Origin: a virus
DNA: 25,074 nucleotides
IMG/VR virus record: IMGVR_UViG_3300005294_000072
Location: 1 to 25,074 of that record
Strand: one strand, 5' to 3'
Shown: positions 159 to 15,809 of the stretch, piece after piece
How positions within the stretch are numbered: the stretch's first letter is position 1
How the letters are laid out: each line of letters begins with the position of its first letter
Position numbers and translations under genes: made by a program
Notes under the pieces: generated by a model
The model's input: only the letters and a program-made list of their open reading frames with translations
What the model was told of the DNA's origin: nothing
Databases searched by the model: none

Positions 159-161
159 TTG
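106..161 (+). repeat. Three direct copies of TAGTAGTTG upstream of the early promoter
   Basis: TAGTAGTTG occurs at 106-114, 128-136 and 153-161. The first two copies extend to TAGTAGTTGCGT. Start-to-start spacing is 22 and 25 bases, about two helical turns, and the last copy overlaps the -35 hexamer at 159. This arrangement would suit an operator or activator site array controlling the promoter, which is inference. Confidence 0.45.
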
Positions 162-187
162 ACATTGTTAGTTAGTTATGCTATCAT
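159..187 (+). promoter_or_regulatory. Strong sigma70-type promoter for the early block
   Basis: A perfect -35 hexamer TTGACA (159-164) is followed after exactly 17 bases by TATCAT (182-187), a good -10 box. It sits in non-coding DNA, points rightward into the structured region and the long plus-strand gene block, and predicts a transcript start near 194. It is the best host-type promoter I saw in the window and probably drives early transcription. Confidence 0.75.
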
Positions 188-193
188 TGTTTC

Positions 194-828
194 ATGGTTG
201 ATTGATTAAGTAGCTTTACCTTTGAATAACTGAGAAGTAGCTAACTCAGAAAAAGGTTAATACTTCGGTATTATCCGTAGCAAAACGTAAAAACACCTTG
301 CTATTGATAATTAGGTAGAGCTACTTAACGAATTAATCAATGGGAGCATAACACATGTAATATGAATACTGTTACATCGTGCAGTCGGTCAAATAGGTAA
401 TGACAAAGCATAGTTAAACCGGGCTATGTGAAAACATTACCGCATAAAGAGATAATGACAATTTAAAGACTGTGCTAGTTTTGGTACTACGGAAACTAGC
501 GCAATATTAATACCTGCAACATGTTCTCTTGTTTCATACTTTTGGTGATAGTTGCACAATCATATCAGATAGGTGAAATAACCTATAGGAATGAAAAGCA
601 TAGATAATAGGCTAACTCTTAGCAGTCCTTATTATCGATACTATCACCAAAAACATTCATAGAACACGAGAGAATATGTTAGAGGTGCTAATCGCACTTT
701 ATGATAATGCCATTAGTTTAAGTGTATCCGGTAAGGATATCAAAACGTGTCCTAGAAAGGATGAGATGCTGGAATTAACCGGCATGGCAGATAATTATCA
801 ACAACTAACATGCTAGTCAAAGACTGGT
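194..828 (+). ncRNA. Large multi-domain structured RNA (candidate ornate large RNA)
   Basis: There is no convincing coding frame, but helices run almost end to end. Domain 1 is closed by 198-203/335-340 and 206-220/314-328 (15 bp, one U.G) and holds three hairpins: 230-234/245-249, 255-263/268-276 with a cUUCGg tetraloop, and 278-283/298-303. Next come 352-360/372-381, a two-step hairpin 396-402/435-441 with 408-413/424-429, and an 11-bp stem 471-481/493-503. Domain 2 is closed by 518-532/666-680 (15 bp, two wobbles) and 540-552/640-652 (13 bp, perfect), enclosing 569-574/581-586 and 603-611/627-636. Smaller stems follow at 683-688/694-699, 767-772/779-784 and 813-818/822-827. The strong promoter lies just upstream. 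Size and density resemble the ROOL and GOLLD classes of phage RNAs, but no class match was made. It could instead be a very long structured leader. The 3' end is uncertain. Confidence 0.7.
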
Positions 829-846
829 GAAGGATTGAATAGTATC

Positions 847-1125
847 ATGCTTACCTTACGACGATTTAATCCTAATGGCATTCAATATTCTCTTAATGAG
901 AATTATGATGGTTCCACTACCATTATCAAGTCTAATACCACTAAAAGTATCAAGGTTAATTTTGGTATTGATGCTATTAGTCAAGCATGGTATAACTGGC
1001 ATATGAAAGGTCAGTTAATCCAAAAAGCATTTCCATTCTTTAATGCTGATGAAAGAGAATTTCTTATTACCGGCATGACTCCTGAAGAATGGTCAGAAAT
1101 GCTTGAAAAACAAGTAGAAGAATAA
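847..1125 (+). CDS. Conserved-type phage protein, function unknown
   Basis: A 92-residue soluble protein. Its second half (about residues 48-90) contains the pattern IQKAFPFFNADEREFLITG, followed by TPEEW, which I recognise as typical of a widespread small phage protein family of unknown role. Start choice: a TTG at 835 is only one base after the GAAGG at 829-833, so ATG 847 is more likely although its spacing (13) is long. It is the first gene after the structured RNA region and is followed within 2 bases by the next gene, so it probably opens the early operon. Confidence 0.75.
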   Translation: MLTLRRFNPNGIQYSLNENYDGSTTIIKSNTTKSIKVNFGIDAISQAWYNWHMKGQLIQKAFPFFNADEREFLITGMTPEEWSEMLEKQVEE

Positions 1126-2256: not shown

Positions 2257-2380
2257 CTAGTTAATAAGGTACACAATGTTATTTTTGCTAGCTCTATTAT
2301 CTAGTACCAAAAAAGATTGTCTAATCCGGTAATATTATTGAGATTAGATAGGTGAAAATGATAATAGGGCTAGTTAAGAT
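2257..2380 (+). ncRNA. Structured RNA element between genes (candidate leader or small RNA)
   Basis: This lies in the 148-bp gap after 2233. A long helix pairs 2287-2301 with 2360-2374 (15 bp, two wobbles). Inside it, 2317-2325 pairs with 2341-2349 (9 bp, one wobble). A competing hairpin pairs GGTAC 2268-2272 with GTACC 2304-2308, which cannot form together with the long helix as a simple nested fold, so two states or a pseudoknot are possible. CTAGTTAA is present at both ends (2257-2264, 2370-2377). The element stops just before ATG 2382 and might control that gene. Its sequence shares words with the large RNA at 194-828. Confidence 0.55.
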
Positions 2381-2381
2381 A

Positions 2382-2513
2382 ATGAAAAAGAAGAAAAAAG
2401 AAGATAGTAAACTATTAAAGGTGCTCAAAGAAAGAAGAGCACAGTTCTATCTTTTTAATGTTAAGTTAAAAAACGAAGAAATTATTGAAAAAGCTAAGAA
2501 AGGCATAAAGTAG
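2382..2513 (+). CDS. Small basic protein, 43 aa
   Basis: A 43-residue, very Lys-rich protein. It begins MKKKKKED and continues with alternating Lys, Arg and hydrophobic residues compatible with one long amphipathic helix. Net charge is strongly positive, so nucleic-acid binding is possible, but no family is recognised. No clear Shine-Dalgarno site is present; the start codon directly follows the 3' strand of the RNA helix ending at 2374, which could expose or hide it. The next gene starts 8 bases after the stop. Confidence 0.5.
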   Translation: MKKKKKEDSKLLKVLKERRAQFYLFNVKLKNEEIIEKAKKGIK

Positions 2514-2520
2514 TATTGTT

Positions 2521-2691
2521 ATGACCATTATATTAACTACAACTGATAAACGATATACCTTATGGAATGTAATTAGTTTTCAAGTATTAGATACTAAAGC
2601 ATTACCAGAATTGCATGATATTGTAGTACATCATTTTGACAGACCTAAGACAATGATTAGTGCTAAAGCTACTAAGATTGAAATTAGGTAA
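2521..2691 (+). CDS. Small protein, 56 aa, unknown
   Basis: A 56-residue protein with beta-type alternation at the start (MTIILTTTDKRYTLWNVISF) and a final basic strand. It has no cysteines, no membrane segment and no recognised family. It fits exactly between the previous small gene and the helicase, with 7 and 4 base gaps, and uses the same codon style as its neighbours, which supports it being a real gene. The longer helicase-frame start at 2660 would overlap it and is less likely. Confidence 0.6.
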   Translation: MTIILTTTDKRYTLWNVISFQVLDTKALPELHDIVVHHFDRPKTMISAKATKIEIR

Positions 2692-2695
2692 TATC

Positions 2696-4378
2696 ATGCT
2701 TGATTTATCATTTGAAACAATTAAAGGCACCAAACTAATTGACAAATGTCCCATATGTTCTAAGATTGCAAAAGAAAAAACATCATTCATTGCTCAGGAA
2801 AAGAAGTTTATAACTCTTGAGTGTGGGCATTTGTTGGTTCGTTCGCTTCCTAAAACTATTGATTATTCTCTGCTTACTTTCGATGGTAATGATTCTTGCT
2901 CACATGATTGGTCTTTACCTCCTGCTAATTCTTACAAAACAATCTGCTCAATTTGTAACGCGAAGCGACCATATCTCTTTCAGATAGATGGTATGAAAGC
3001 TTTAGAGCAAGCTAATGGTCGTTTTGGGATATTTGATGAGCAAGGTTTAGGTAAGACTATTCAATCACTTGGCTATATTAAGTACCACCCGGAATCATGG
3101 CCCTTCTTATGGTTCTGCAAAAGTGGTCTAAAATTCCAGGCCATGAAAGAGATGATACGTATTCTCGGCCCTAAGTTTATTCCTCAAGTCATTGAGACTT
3201 CTAAAGACCATATCTTTCCCGGATTTAACTGTTATATTGCTTCTTATGATATCCTTCGTCGCATGTCCTCTACTAAGTTAGAACAGTTAAACAAACTAGT
3301 CAAATGCGTAGTAATAGACGAAGTACAGCATATTAAAAATCCTGATAGTACAAGAACACAGCAAGTAAGGAAAATGTGTCATGGAATTGATAAGATTATT
3401 CCACTATCAGGAACACATTGGAAGAATAGAGGCAGCGAATCTTTTGTAGCCTGTAATCTAATAAATCCTGCCAAATTTCACTCATTTGAAAACTTTAAAC
3501 TAAGATGGGTAGAATATCATTACGATAGTTCTACTGGTAAGACGAAAGAGGCAGGGTTAAAAAAAGGCTTTCGCGAGTATTGTTCTGACGTATTCATTCG
3601 ACGCGAAAGAACAGAGGTAATGAAAGAGTTACCCCTAATCAATCGTACTAAACTATACGCAGTATTACCTAAAGATGCTCAAAAGTCTTATGATGATGCT
3701 GCTGATGATTTCGTAAAGATTTGGAATAACCTAGTTATAGGCGGAGAAGAGAATAGCTTTAAAGCTGCTGGTAATGTATTATCTGCTCTAAATCAGATGC
3801 GCCAAATTATAGGCGTAGCAAAGATACCGGCAACATTAGATTTTGCGCAAGAGTTTCTCGAAAATACTGACCGTAAGCTACTTATCTTCGTGCATCATAT
3901 TTCTGTTGGGCAGGCTATTTATGATGCTATGACAGAGTTTTGTAAAGATAGTGGTATTAATGTTAAGAAACTTACATCTTCTATGTCTCCAGAAGAAAGA
4001 TTTAAGATGTGTGAAGATTTTAATGCTAATCCTTCTACAAGACTTGCCATATTAAGCACACTAGCAAGTGGTGAAGGTCTAAACTTGCAGACCTGTTCTG
4101 ATGGTATTATGCACGAAAGACAATGGAATCCATCTAATGAAGAACAGGCAGAAGGTAGAATGATACGTATTGGTCAATTGAGTAACAATGTTAACATGAC
4201 CTACGTAGAAGCTGAAGGAACTGTTGATGCTGATTTGGATGCAATAGTTGAGAGAAAACGAATGCAATTCCATGATGCTATGAATAAGGGTGAGAAAGTG
4301 CAATGGAGTCAAGATAGCATCATTAAGGAATTAGGGGAAGCATTGGCTAAGAGGCATAGACTTAAAGGAAAAAGATAA
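2696..4378 (+). CDS. SNF2/SF2-type helicase with N-terminal zinc-binding region
   Basis: A 560-residue SF2 ATPase of the SNF2 group, expected to translocate on duplex DNA or remodel forks during phage replication or recombination. The first 90 residues hold two Cys groups (C18, C21, C43; C69, C84, C87), probably zinc-binding. Helicase motifs then follow in order: Walker A DEQGLGKT (114-121), DEVQ in place of DEAH (208-211), motif III-like LSGTHWKN (237-244) and the motif VI pattern QAEGRMIRIGQ (484-494), typical of SNF2 proteins. ATG 2696 is chosen because AGG lies 7 bases upstream and the earlier in-frame start overlaps another gene. The stop overlaps the next start (TAATG). Confidence 0.92.
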   Translation: MLDLSFETIKGTKLIDKCPICSKIAKEKTSFIAQEKKFITLECGHLLVRSLPKTIDYSLLTFDGNDSCSHDWSLPPANSYKTICSICNAKRPYLFQIDGMKALEQANGRFGIFDEQGLGKTIQSLGYIKYHPESWPFLWFCKSGLKFQAMKEMIRILGPKFIPQVIETSKDHIFPGFNCYIASYDILRRMSSTKLEQLNKLVKCVVIDEVQHIKNPDSTRTQQVRKMCHGIDKIIPLSGTHWKNRGSESFVACNLINPAKFHSFENFKLRWVEYHYDSSTGKTKEAGLKKGFREYCSDVFIRRERTEVMKELPLINRTKLYAVLPKDAQKSYDDAADDFVKIWNNLVIGGEENSFKAAGNVLSALNQMRQIIGVAKIPATLDFAQEFLENTDRKLLIFVHHISVGQAIYDAMTEFCKDSGINVKKLTSSMSPEERFKMCEDFNANPSTRLAILSTLASGEGLNLQTCSDGIMHERQWNPSNEEQAEGRMIRIGQLSNNVNMTYVEAEGTVDADLDAIVERKRMQFHDAMNKGEKVQWSQDSIIKELGEALAKRHRLKGKR

Positions 4379-5346: not shown

Positions 5347-5874
5347 ATGGTACTCGGTTTTACCGGCACTCAAAATGGAATGAATAGCTTTCAAGAGTCA
5401 GAAGTGTTAAAACTTTTCGATTCTACACAACCAGAAACATTACATCATGGGGATTGCATAGGATCTGATGCACAATGTCATTACCTATTTCTAAGATGGC
5501 ATGCGTGTAATGATTATATGAAACGCAATATCATCGTGCATCCTCCAATTGATGAGAAAAAGAGGGCTTTTGTTTTGAAAGCTCAGATGGGTCAAAGTTT
5601 AATAGACTTAATGACAAACTGTAAAAACTCTATTGATATTATCGAACTTCAACCACTAAGCTATTTCGACCGTAATTACGAAATAGTAAGAGCCTGCAAT
5701 CTTCTAATAGTTACACCTAAAGAACTAGAACATACTGTAAGGAGTGGTACTTGGAAAACTGTAAGATATGCTTGGCAGTTAAAAAAGGATGTAAGAGTTA
5801 TTCCGCCACTTTTTGCTGCTCCTGCTGATAATACTTATAATGATACTGATTCAGTACTAAAGTTCAATGAGTAA
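5347..5874 (+). CDS. SLOG-fold (YspA/DprA-related) nucleotide-binding protein
   Basis: A 175-residue Rossmann-type protein. The N-terminus reads GFTGTQNGM (residues 4-12), a nucleotide-binding loop, followed by HHGDCIGSDA (about 38-47), which is the usual second signature of the YspA-like SLOG group. Later RN, LLIVTP and RSGTWKTVRYA (about 134-144) match the conserved C-terminal strand and Ser/Thr loop. Members of this group bind nucleotides or nucleotide-like signals and are common in phages; the ligand here is unknown. The gene is packed in the early operon, 1 base after the previous stop. Confidence 0.7.
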   Translation: MVLGFTGTQNGMNSFQESEVLKLFDSTQPETLHHGDCIGSDAQCHYLFLRWHACNDYMKRNIIVHPPIDEKKRAFVLKAQMGQSLIDLMTNCKNSIDIIELQPLSYFDRNYEIVRACNLLIVTPKELEHTVRSGTWKTVRYAWQLKKDVRVIPPLFAAPADNTYNDTDSVLKFNE

Positions 5875-10948: not shown

Positions 10949-11120
10949 TTATTCAACCAGGATGCTGTGAATAAGTTGTATGTTTTCACAACAAATAAAC
11001 AGAACATTATATTGTCTTGATAATAACTTCAAGAATATAGTGACTAGATATTGTGAGCAACGAAGTTCAGCGTTGTGTCTACCCACATAATATCCAGAAA
11101 AGGACATCCTGGTTGAATAA
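10949..11120 (+). ncRNA. Multi-branched structured RNA closed by a 16-bp perfect helix
   Basis: In the gap after the SSB-like gene, 10949-10964 (TTATTCAACCAGGATG) pairs perfectly with 11105-11120. Inside are three hairpins: 10966-10971/10985-10990 (6 bp; a 5-bp GTTGT/ACAAC stem competes), 11006-11012 plus 11015-11020 with 11029-11041 (13 bp with a 2-base bulge), and 11058-11062/11071-11075 (5 bp). The fold is thus a closed junction of about 170 nt. No T-run follows, so it is not a simple terminator. It precedes the acidic-protein gene at 11185 and may be a leader or an independent RNA. Confidence 0.65.
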
Positions 11121-11184
11121 TTATTACTATTTACTCAAAGTCGGAAAATGGTGGCACAGCTTCTATCATTTGGGAGAAAATTGT

Positions 11185-11316
11185 ATGGAACATCAGGAAT
11201 ATCGTGATTACTTTATGGATGATGAGAAAGATGAAGAAGAACTTCCTGAAGAAGCAGAAGACGTAGACGAGGAAGAAGAGGAAGAAGTAGATACTGATGA
11301 TGAGGATAATGAGTAA
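11185..11316 (+). CDS. Small, extremely acidic protein, 43 aa
   Basis: A 43-residue protein that is mainly Asp and Glu after MEHQEYRDYFMDDEK. It carries almost no positive charge in its second half, so it could mimic DNA or mask a basic surface, as some phage inhibitors do; this is inference. The longer frame from GTG 11053 runs through the structured element and has no ribosome site, while ATG 11185 has GGGAG with 9 bases of spacing. It overlaps the next start (TAATG). Confidence 0.65.
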   Translation: MEHQEYRDYFMDDEKDEEELPEEAEDVDEEEEEEVDTDDEDNE

Positions 11317-11570: not shown

Positions 11571-11581
11571 ATAATAGAGAA

Positions 11582-11755
11582 TGCTTCTTGGTGCTATACT
11601 GTTCTTCCTTTGGTTGATATGCCTTAAAAGAATCAACTATACAAAAGGTTGGAATATTCTGTAAAATGAACACAAAGCAAAAGAAGCAGAACCTCGCGTA
11701 ATGATTCTGTTAATTTCATTCTGTTGAATGACTAGACAGATAGTTACGCGAGGTT
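11582..11755 (+). ncRNA. Structured RNA element upstream of tRNA
   Basis: Positions 11571-11777 contain no credible gene. 11582-11589 (TGCTTCTT) pairs with 11681-11688, enclosing an 8-bp hairpin 11611-11618/11632-11639. Next, 11690-11701 (AACCTCGCGTAA) pairs perfectly with 11744-11755 over 12 bp, and its loop holds 11706-11710/11736-11740 and 11716-11721/11726-11731 with a TGTT loop, giving one rod of about 66 nt. The rod sits 22 bases before the tRNA. It might guide processing of the tRNA transcript, serve as a terminator without a T-run, or be a separate RNA. This is read by eye. Confidence 0.6.
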
Positions 11756-11777
11756 GTTATTGTTGATAATATTTTCA

Positions 11778-11854
11778 GGGCCATTAGCTCAAATGGTTAG
11801 AGCATCCGGCTCATAATCGGGTGGTTACTAGTTCAAGTCTAGTATGGCCCACCA
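11778..11854 (+). tRNA. tRNA-Ile2 (anticodon CAU), probably lysidine-modified
   Basis: A full cloverleaf with encoded CCA: acceptor GGGCCAT/ATGGCCC, D-stem GCTC/GAGC, anticodon loop CTCATAA with anticodon CAT, and T-loop GTTCAAGTC. CAT alone could mean Met, but the acceptor carries C4-G69 and C5-G68, the pairs known to let TilS recognise tRNA-Ile2, and the D-arm and T-arm read like bacterial tRNA-Ile2. It would then decode AUA, frequent in this AT-rich phage. An initiator tRNA is unlikely since 1-72 is a G-C pair. Confidence 0.85.
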
Positions 11855-13108: not shown

Positions 13109-13344
13109 ATAATGATTTTCGTAAACTTCAAGCAGTAGTTAAAGTATTAAAAGTACGATTTAATAATTTGAATGTAGAAGAAGTTAATGATATTGCAATT
13201 AAAGTTATTGAAGCAGTAAGAGATCAAGCTTCTTTACGTTATATTGATAGTGACTATGGTTCATTTGAAGTATTTGGTAGTCAACAAGATATTGAAAATC
13301 TTCATAGAACTCTTTCCTCAATGACAAAGAGAATTGATGAATGA
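13105..13344 (+). CDS. Small unknown protein, 79 aa
   Basis: A 79-residue protein starting at GTG 13105, which overlaps the previous stop as GTGA. It has helix, helix, strand, helix layout (LQAVVKVLKVRFNNLNVEEV, SFEVFGSQQDIENLHRTLSS). No motif and no family. It is followed by the polymerase gene with a 4-base overlap. Confidence 0.65.
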   Translation: MNNDFRKLQAVVKVLKVRFNNLNVEEVNDIAIKVIEAVRDQASLRYIDSDYGSFEVFGSQQDIENLHRTLSSMTKRIDE

Positions 13345-15809
13345 ATATTTTTGTACCTGGTACAGGCAATCCTTATGCAAAGATTCTCTTCATAGGAGAA
13401 GCACCATCGTTTGAAGAAGAGAATGCTTTAAAACCTTTTGTTGGCCCTGCTGGTAGATTATTTGATGAATGCCTTCATAATGCTGGTATTGTTCGATCAG
13501 ATGTATGGATCACGAACGTTTTCAAACAGATGATAGTTCCTCAGCAGAAGTTTGGTAGAAAGATACCAGCGGTAGTAAGGGCAGAACAAGCAGGATTAAA
13601 TGTACAGGAATCTATACAAGTACTAAGAACAGAAATAGATGAAATTAAACCTAATGTTATATGTCTCCTTGGCGGCACAGCATTATGGGCACTAAGTGGT
13701 AAAGATAAGATAACGCCTTGGAGAGGATCTATTCTATCTCTCTGGTCTTATAAATGCATACCAACATTCCATCCTGCAACACTATTATATGGTGAAGGAG
13801 AATATTGGCAGAAATATATTATTGAGTTTGATTTTAGGAGAGTATTGTCTCAAAGTGAATACCCAGAAATAAGACGGCCTTCACGTAATCTTTCTATTTG
13901 TCATAATAGTGCTCAGCTTTCTGATTTTATAGAGCGTAACAATGATAAAGATAAGCTCTCAGTGGACATTGAAGCACTTCGTTGTATACCAGTTTGCGTC
14001 AGTCTCGCTTTCGATTCTATTGAAGGTCTTTGTGTCCCTCTTTGGAATAGCACCTCTATCACACGAATTTCCGACATTCCTTCTTCTGACTTGGCTAGTA
14101 TCTGGAATATTCTCTATCTATTACTCAAAGACAAGAATAAAAAGATCATAGGCCAGAACTTTAAATATGACCAAGATAAATTAAGGAGGCTAGGTTTTGT
14201 TATTTCCAATCTTTATTCTGATACTTTGCTTAAACACTTTGCTATATCTCCTGAACTTCCTCACAACTTGGCCTTTCAAACAAGCATTTATACTGAAGAA
14301 CCATACTATAAAGACGAAGGACTTGAATTTGATTACACTAAACATGATATCTCTGATTTGTTACTTTATGGGGCTAAAGATGCTCCTGTAACGTGGGAAA
14401 TAGAGGATAAGCAGGAACAGGATTTAGTTGAAGTAGGAATGCATGATTTTTATTATAACTTCTTGATGAAACTTCATGATCTTTATTCTGACATTGAAAA
14501 TGTTGGATTTCCTGTTAATGAAAAAGCACGCGAGAAGTTACTTCGTAAATATATAAGTTGGTCAGAACGTTTAAGCTATGAACTATTTAAATACGCAGAC
14601 GCGCCTATTAATTGTGATTCATGGCAGCAAGTAGATAAGCTTCTCTATGAAGTAATGAAAATACCACGTAGACAAGGTACTGGAGAAGAAGTACTTACTC
14701 AACTACTCGCGAACGTTGTAAAGAAAGATGACCAGAAAAAGTGCATTACTAATATTCTTGAACAAAGACGTGTTAACAAGACTATTGGAACCTATCTAAT
14801 GGCAATGAATGATTATGATGGTAGAATGCGAACTGCTTGTTATATTCCATTAGATACTGGTAGAACTAGTACAGGATTACAAGATCCACCTATTAGACCT
14901 TATGTAGATAATTTTCGTAATCTAAAAGGTAAGATTGAAAAGAAGAAATGTCATGGAGCAGCCTTCCAAACATTAACAAAGCATGGTGATGTTGGTGGTG
15001 ATATTCGCTTAATGTATTCTTGTGATCCCGGTTGTGTTCTTCTTAATATAGACTCTTCTCAAGCAGAGGCTCGCGTAATTGCACTACTCTCTGATGATGA
15101 AGTTACTCTAAAACTATACGATACAAACGATATTCATGCTCTAACAGCTTCATGGTTCTTAGGTGGTGACGAGTTTAAGTACTCAAAGAAAGTACTAGGC
15201 TATGAATGCCCTGAAAGATTTCTTGGTAAAACATTACGCCATGCCGGACATTTAGGCGCAAAAGGACAAAGAGCAGCTACAGAAGTTAATACGCAGGCTA
15301 GAAAAGCTCATATTGATATTAATATTTCTAAGGCATTTGCTGATAAGGCTTTGCTCATATTCCACAACAAATCTCCCAAGGTGCAGCAAGTATTTCAGAA
15401 AGGTATAATAGCTCAACTCGAAATTGACAGAACATTAATAGCACCTGTACCTTATGGGGTAGATAGTACAATAGGAGGCAAGAGAACATTCCATGAAAAA
15501 TGGTCTGATGAATTGTTTAGGCAGGCATTCTCTTATATTCCACAAAGAGCTATAAGTGATAATACTAAGGCAAGTGCGTTAAGAATACGCGAAAGATTAC
15601 AAGATATAAGAATAGTAGTAGAATCACATGATAGCTTGACCTTTATGGTAGAGATTAATGATCTTGAGGAGGTGGGTAGAGTGGCTAAAGAGGAGTTAGA
15701 AATGCCTATAAGTTTCAAAACATGTAGTTTAAGTAGAAGGGATTTAGTAATACCGGCTGAATTAGAAGTTGGAACTAATTATAAAGAATTGGTGAAGTAT
15801 AAGGTTTAG
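13341..15809 (+). CDS. DNA polymerase, family A, with N-terminal uracil-DNA glycosylase-like domain
   Basis: An 822-residue replicative polymerase with three parts. Residues 1-170 resemble a family 4/5 uracil-DNA glycosylase: GEAP (19-22), FVGPAG (33-38) and HPAT (144-147). Residues 200-350 are a 3'-5' exonuclease: D209/E211, N273/D277, Y343 and D347. The polymerase has TGRTST (506-511), motif A DSSQAEAR (571-578), motif B around R626, K630 and H634, and motif C with H763 and D764 in ESHDSLTF. His in place of the aromatic residue of motif B and Ser after HD are departures from E. coli Pol I. UDG-polymerase fusions occur in some phages (SPO1 is the one I recall). UDG activity is unproven. Confidence 0.93.
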   Translation: MNIFVPGTGNPYAKILFIGEAPSFEEENALKPFVGPAGRLFDECLHNAGIVRSDVWITNVFKQMIVPQQKFGRKIPAVVRAEQAGLNVQESIQVLRTEIDEIKPNVICLLGGTALWALSGKDKITPWRGSILSLWSYKCIPTFHPATLLYGEGEYWQKYIIEFDFRRVLSQSEYPEIRRPSRNLSICHNSAQLSDFIERNNDKDKLSVDIEALRCIPVCVSLAFDSIEGLCVPLWNSTSITRISDIPSSDLASIWNILYLLLKDKNKKIIGQNFKYDQDKLRRLGFVISNLYSDTLLKHFAISPELPHNLAFQTSIYTEEPYYKDEGLEFDYTKHDISDLLLYGAKDAPVTWEIEDKQEQDLVEVGMHDFYYNFLMKLHDLYSDIENVGFPVNEKAREKLLRKYISWSERLSYELFKYADAPINCDSWQQVDKLLYEVMKIPRRQGTGEEVLTQLLANVVKKDDQKKCITNILEQRRVNKTIGTYLMAMNDYDGRMRTACYIPLDTGRTSTGLQDPPIRPYVDNFRNLKGKIEKKKCHGAAFQTLTKHGDVGGDIRLMYSCDPGCVLLNIDSSQAEARVIALLSDDEVTLKLYDTNDIHALTASWFLGGDEFKYSKKVLGYECPERFLGKTLRHAGHLGAKGQRAATEVNTQARKAHIDINISKAFADKALLIFHNKSPKVQQVFQKGIIAQLEIDRTLIAPVPYGVDSTIGGKRTFHEKWSDELFRQAFSYIPQRAISDNTKASALRIRERLQDIRIVVESHDSLTFMVEINDLEEVGRVAKEELEMPISFKTCSLSRRDLVIPAELEVGTNYKELVKYKV

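Follow-up and report, generated by a model that had tools for sequence, protein, structure and literature searches.

A densely structured noncoding region, a proposed leader, behind a putative promoter at the start of a phage early region

The stretch of DNA analyzed here (the window) comprises 25,074 nucleotides, positions 1 to 25,074 of the virus record IMGVR_UViG_3300005294_000072. Replication genes occupy the plus strand up to 17.4 kb and include, in addition to those listed in Table 1, genes for a PD-(D/E)XK nuclease and an AAA ATPase, and beyond this point endolysin and other late-type genes lie on the minus strand. The first clear early gene begins with the ATG at 847 (the mechanical ORF starts with the TTG at 835) and has homologues in relatives of the phage. 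It is preceded by several hundred bases of leader that follow a putative promoter. Two tRNAs were found in the window, the nearest of which (at 11778) is located about 11 kb from the leader.

Table 1. Positions of features in the window
Feature	Position	Strand	Basis
Sigma70-type promoter, TTGACA-17-TATCAT, extended -10 (TGc)	159-187	+	Consensus match
Domain 1 (W1), 5'-terminal long helix and junction with 2-3 arms	194-343	+	MFE -50.2, z -8.0
Domain 1b, hairpins	346-515	+	z -4.5 (plus strand), z -0.6 (minus strand)
Domain 2 (W2), two nested long stems around two arms	516-682	+	MFE -54.8, z -8.8
Possible ORF46 (46 aa), start inside Domain 2 helix	676-816	+	Codon score
7-bp hairpin directly before SD-like GAAGGA of next gene	812-828	+	Folding
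First clear early gene, small protein	847-1125	+	phrog_20898, E 2.7e-13
W3, helix of 8 bp + 15 bp, branched top	2278-2383	+	z -5.9, plus strand specific
SNF2 helicase	2660-4378	+
W4, three arms enclosed by a perfect 16-bp helix	10949-11120	+	z -7.3 (its gap), no strand preference
W5, helix of 13 bp, 23 nt before tRNA-Met (11778)	11690-11755	+	Folding
UDG and family A DNA polymerase	13341-15809	+

The strong promoter proposed in the initial annotation is matched by a putative sigma70 site, in which the boxes TTGACA (159-164) and TATCAT (182-187) are separated by a 17-nt spacer, agree with the consensus at 11 of 12 positions and have a TG preceding the -10 box. This site ranked top among 14 promoter-like sites in 1-2700, and the start of transcription predicted from it, at about 194, coincides with the opening of the long helix of Domain 1. 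A scan of 1-2700 revealed no intrinsic terminator-like site between 194 and 2700, and the hairpin at 812-828 was rejected as a terminator because it has no U-run. Similar promoters that point inward and lie no more than 320 nt from the contig end were observed in 8 of 83 contigs of the phage family, as compared to 0.66% of background tiles, which suggests that these contigs terminate near the left end of the genome and that this promoter is used first.

The region folds far more stably than expected. The minimum free energy (MFE) of 190-840 was -203.7 kcal/mol, whereas dinucleotide shuffles reached -136.9 ± 8.1 kcal/mol (z = -8.2). For 190-675 alone, the z score was -10.25 and none of 100 shuffles was equally stable. 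The MFE fold of the leader contains 24 helices of 4 bp or more, and three stems of 13 bp or longer were counted in 190-835, as compared to a shuffle mean of 0.016; two or more such stems occurred in 0 of 4,000 shuffles. The assertion that such dense structure is rare by chance is thus borne out. The minus strand of the leader also folds strongly (z = -6.3). Nevertheless, the plus strand surpasses it by 28 kcal/mol (null, -6.6 ± 6.9; 0 of 100 shuffles), which therefore points to selection on the RNA and agrees with the G.U pairs that had been noticed in the helices. The segment 194-675 is a genuine structured region at the RNA level, and the structured region lies where it had been placed initially.

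The long helix of Domain 1 consists of 195-203/331-339 and 206-221/313-328, giving 25 bp that span a 2x2 loop; the z score of this domain was computed over 194-345. Its main stem had been described as 15 bp long. The stem exists, but it measures 16 bp (206-221/313-328) and continues for another 9 bp past the 2x2 loop. Similarly, the cUUCGg sequence reported for this domain is present at 263-268, but the corresponding hairpin costs 3.1 kcal/mol relative to the MFE fold, has a pairing probability of 0.003 and forms part of an alternative, cloverleaf-like fold. Domain 1b is structured on the plus-strand RNA only, with pairings at 352-362/371-381, at 396-402/435-441 together with 408-415/422-429, and at 471-482/492-503 (12 bp). 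In Domain 2, the 15-bp (518-532/666-680) and 13-bp (540-552/640-652) stems were found exactly as annotated, and the 3' strand of this domain carries an SD-like GAGAG and the ATG of ORF46. When small internal loops are allowed, the basal helices of W1, W2 and W3 comprise 30, 23 and 23 pairs, respectively. The remaining part, 683-834, is weakly structured (z = -2.5).

The codon score of ORF46 (0.03) is intermediate between that of an out-of-frame null (-0.17 ± 0.09) and that of real genes (0.13 ± 0.08), so that the firmly noncoding part is limited to about 194-675; no ORF of more than 28 aa was detected on the plus strand before 676. The segment 676-816 may encode a 46-aa protein, though it is possibly no gene. 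Accordingly, the original view that about 635 bases are free of genes applies to about 194-675 but possibly not to 676-816.

Searches for known RNA families and for homologues were negative. A cmscan search of the window against 4,227 Rfam families at gathering thresholds retrieved the two tRNAs only, in agreement with the earlier remark that no named class had been matched, and a search of 1-1130 with E values up to 10 returned exclusively chance matches of eukaryotic or streptococcal origin. ROOL, GOLLD and OLE were rejected as families since no covariance model matched, and group I and II introns, riboswitches and tmRNA were excluded solely by the absence of Rfam and ARAGORN matches. The kinship to ROOL and GOLLD that had been suggested was not supported: there is no Rfam match, the nearest tRNA is remote, and relatives show no conserved core. 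Using blastn, we found no homologue of the leader sequence among INPHARED phages or PLSDB plasmids; none was detected in 257 fetched loci (blastn and nhmmer) or in the whole records of 30 relatives. A scan of IMG/VR with patterns of 16 to 18 bases gave matches that look like chance and no homologue, single-sequence covariance models of Domain 1, Domain 2 and W3 found no match in about 2.3 Mb of DNA, most of it from related phages, and exact-peptide patterns retrieved no near relative from the viral collection in which they were tried. A possible trans target, namely, the complementarity of 391-405 to 5476-5490 of the window over 15 nt, was taken as chance.

Besides the leader, the early operon holds three further long-stem elements, W3, W4 and W5. 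The closing strand of W3 covers the start of ORF43 (43 aa, 2382-2513). The gap that contains W5 (11571-11777) has a z score of -6.3 and shows no strand preference. The W4 helix joins the gap before the mechanical ORF 11053-11316 to bases within that ORF, and either the real start is located downstream (ATG 11186) or the 5' part of this gene is folded.

The polymerase of the window shares 66% identity with that of its closest relative, G001 (locus L043), 63% with G002 (L044), 55% with L158, 50% with L157 and 35-49% with many others. The 182 kb of noncoding DNA from this family contained 34 stems of 13 bp or longer, as compared to 2.4 in shuffles; a few of these stems come from contigs with shared sequence, so that the 34 do not all represent independent cases. 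In a small sample of contigs from unrelated phages (33 kb), there were 3 long stems, 2 of them in a single contig, versus 0.05 in shuffles. An excess of long stems is hence not unique to the phage family of the window. A less strict descriptor, which asked for a basal helix of 16 or more pairs topped by branches, was dropped, as it gave 389 cases versus 325 in shuffles, and what might be called a class therefore rests on long uninterrupted stems.

Two relatives share the layout of the window at a contig end, with a promoter, a structured leader and early genes, and have no sequence in common with it. In L203 (IMGVR_UViG_3300036863_000017), about 390 noncoding bases separate a promoter at 234-262 from the first gene at 655; the leader (z = -9.2) has stems of 14, 19 and 14 bp. 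In L197, a promoter at 184-213 precedes a 28-bp helix with three arms (z = -7.5), the 3' strand of which reaches the start codon at 397. The plus strand is significantly favoured in L197, in L171 and also in W3. Leader length among the relatives ranges from about 120 to 640 nt, and in most of those that have a promoter at the left end the leader is short and unstructured. When positional equivalents were sought in the closest relatives, G001 and G002, the left-end leader of G001 proved to be short and ordinary; similar elements are present in its gaps at L132 1723-1837, 1876-1980 and 2349-2501. The ornate leader is thus recurrent, but not universal, among the relatives. The elements have 33 8-mers in common (19 ± 5 expected), and this slight excess, together with weak pairwise scores, made homology among them unconvincing. 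One pair of related elements, L051:5836-5985 and L052:7212-7390, each before a small gene, is homologous (83% over 108 nt); inspection by eye revealed about 2 compensatory pairs and 1 mismatch in the inner helix and a different outer helix, which is too little to count.

Several further observations were made in these genomes. In L203, the segment 60-700 is structured even more strongly (z = -16, from 20 shuffles), the right arm of an inverted repeat located upstream (85-98/255-268) lies over the -10 box and start site, and a 177-aa protein (1338-1871) contains a long low-complexity N/Y run (YYNYYNNYNNNYYNYY...). The SD sequence AAGGAG of L051 has two alternative upstream pairing partners in a switch-like arrangement. 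Two hairpins of G001 (L132:529-577 and L043:9483-9542) have in common the stem ends GGTGCGGTT ... GGCCGCACC, which include tandem U.G pairs, and differ otherwise. Relatives that otherwise have little in common share a conserved poly-T tract ahead of the early region (L132:99-182, L203:147-238, L199:8139-8166 and L212:470-497), whereas the 158 bases before the promoter of the window have none. Iteron-like repeats AGTAGGGAAA, spaced by about 10-12 nt and with an inverted copy across the poly-T tract, are homologous among four contigs (L199:7930-8420, L212:250-760, L219:1-310 and L209:1-210); this repeat region is possibly a replication origin or terminus region. Finally, tblastn showed that the DNA polymerase gene of L061 (3206-6628) is split by about 1 kb at query residue 631, with both halves intact, and the insert is possibly an intron or another insertion.

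Several closing helices are predicted to bury the ribosome binding site (RBS) of the next small gene. The predicted accessibility was 0.22 at the start of ORF46, within the lowest 2.7% of 600 control starts, and 0.10 at that of ORF43 (2382), below all 600 controls. The same extreme rank (below 600 of 600) was obtained for the starts at L197 397, L171 8823, L189 910 and L051 5967; all of these element-adjacent starts had been chosen because a stem stood there. In an unbiased count, the 3' arms of long stems covered 40 of 3,417 starts, as compared to 20-34 at shifted positions, whereas 5' arms were depleted at starts (17 of 3,417 versus 26-44). The enrichment of 3' arms looks real but is modest (40 versus about 26).

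On this basis, we propose that the region serves the phage early operon in cis as a 5' leader composed of several domains, a proposal for which we consider the chances to be about even. The structure, its plus-strand bias, the promoter match, the recurrence in relatives and the occluded starts on which it builds are all computational observations. An early-operon leader appears likelier than a free-standing RNA, since no terminator was found in 194-2700 and small genes follow directly. Host RNA polymerase would transcribe the leader from the promoter that comes first at the left genome end, and the transcript, beginning at about 194 within the long helix of Domain 1, would have a paired and protected 5' end. 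The long helices of Domains 1 and 2 (25-28 bp) and of W3 (23 bp) are of a length that RNase III cuts, although helix length on its own does not define an RNase III site; putative cleavage would split the leader from the downstream messages. The closing helices would mask the RBS of ORF46 and ORF43, and translation of these genes would begin after cleavage or refolding.

Phage T7 has a strong host promoter near its left end and a noncoding leader that precedes the first small gene. The window resembles the T7 early region (R0.3 to R1.3) in its putative left-end promoter, which points towards the early genes and the position of which is suggested by the 8 of 83 contigs, in a noncoding leader before the first small gene, and in long imperfect helices between early genes; leader and intergenic helices measure about two turns or more. 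RNase III cuts the T7 early transcript at five sites (PMC4858673). However, the T7 sites are short single hairpins, whereas the helices of the window, in which cleavage is putative, enclose multi-branched domains that follow one another almost without a break along the leader. A second parallel is the lambda N leader, in which RNase III reportedly relieves the repression of N translation (Wilson et al. 2002, as cited in PMC4858673). A comparable control of ribosome access to the next gene by structure in an early leader is proposed here, through predicted masking of the downstream RBS. In contrast to lambda N, the window contains no identified N-like protein, boxA/boxB or NUT site, and its helices overlap the starts directly. 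OLE RNA, which is bacterial and has dedicated protein partners, is likewise large and ornate (about 600 nt) but differs in that the leader has no Rfam match. Taken together, there is no sequence family for this leader, and it is probably a variant of the early-leader kind.

The alternative that deserves most attention is a large trans-acting noncoding RNA that is made early, released by processing and persists as a stable RNA, which forms a cage or scaffold or acts as a decoy for a protein of the host or of a defence system; we regard this as possible, yet rather unlikely. With its dense helices and multi-branched domains over about 480-640 nt, the leader is similar to ROOL and GOLLD, which are likewise phage encoded, several hundred nucleotides long and ornate in secondary structure, form RNA-only cages and are frequently located near tRNA islands (PMC12286853). 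Moreover, its 648 nt represent the longest noncoding stretch behind a strong promoter in about 250 loci. However, it differs from these RNAs in having neither an Rfam match nor a tRNA island nearby, and transcription would be expected to run on into genes. RNAs of this type retain a conserved core, whereas members of this family have no sequence conservation and their leaders vary in length as described above. The lack of a terminator and the occurrence of smaller elements of the same style between other genes also argue against a trans-acting role. A related idea, that these leaders are a type of large phage RNA with a conserved place and architecture rather than sequence, which is excised and acts on host or defence machinery, is in our estimation unlikely.

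It is improbable that the inverted repeats act as DNA, in cruciform formation, replication, recombination or packaging, with RNA folding as a by-product. The arms of several stems are perfect palindromes (540/652 and 10949/11120), iteron-like repeats occur at the left end of relatives, the minus strand of the leader folds well, and W4, W5 and the first element of G001 show no strand preference. These features are opposed by the 28 kcal/mol advantage of the plus strand over the whole leader, by the restriction of Domain 1b to this strand and by the significant plus-strand bias of W3, L197 and L171.

We consider it very improbable that the leader functions in processive antitermination or attenuation, in which the nascent RNA either modifies the polymerase, as the put RNA of HK022 does with host RNA polymerase, or switches folds to control read-through. 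The location at the start of an early operon would fit, as would the other folds that Domain 1 can adopt at a cost of up to 3.1 kcal/mol and the recurrence of the first-stem octamer AAGTAGCT in an inner loop of this domain, which might allow a strand switch. On the other hand, 1-2700 contains no terminator-like target and the leader sequence is unconserved, unlike put. Chance structure or a decayed coding region has a negligible probability: 676-834 is weakly structured and may be coding, but for 194-675 chance is refuted by the shuffle tests, and decay is at odds with plus-strand ORFs that do not exceed 28 aa before 676.

Early phage leaders set the expression of the first genes, and searches for families miss them when only architecture persists. 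If the trans-acting reading were true, the region would represent another large phage RNA alongside ROOL and GOLLD. If the reading that we favour, that of an early-operon leader, is correct, a widespread lineage of phages from soil and sediment would use a series of RNA elements with long helices and multiple branches to control early translation. Such a device would be more elaborate than those of T7 and lambda N, and alignment-based RNA discovery would overlook elements of this kind.
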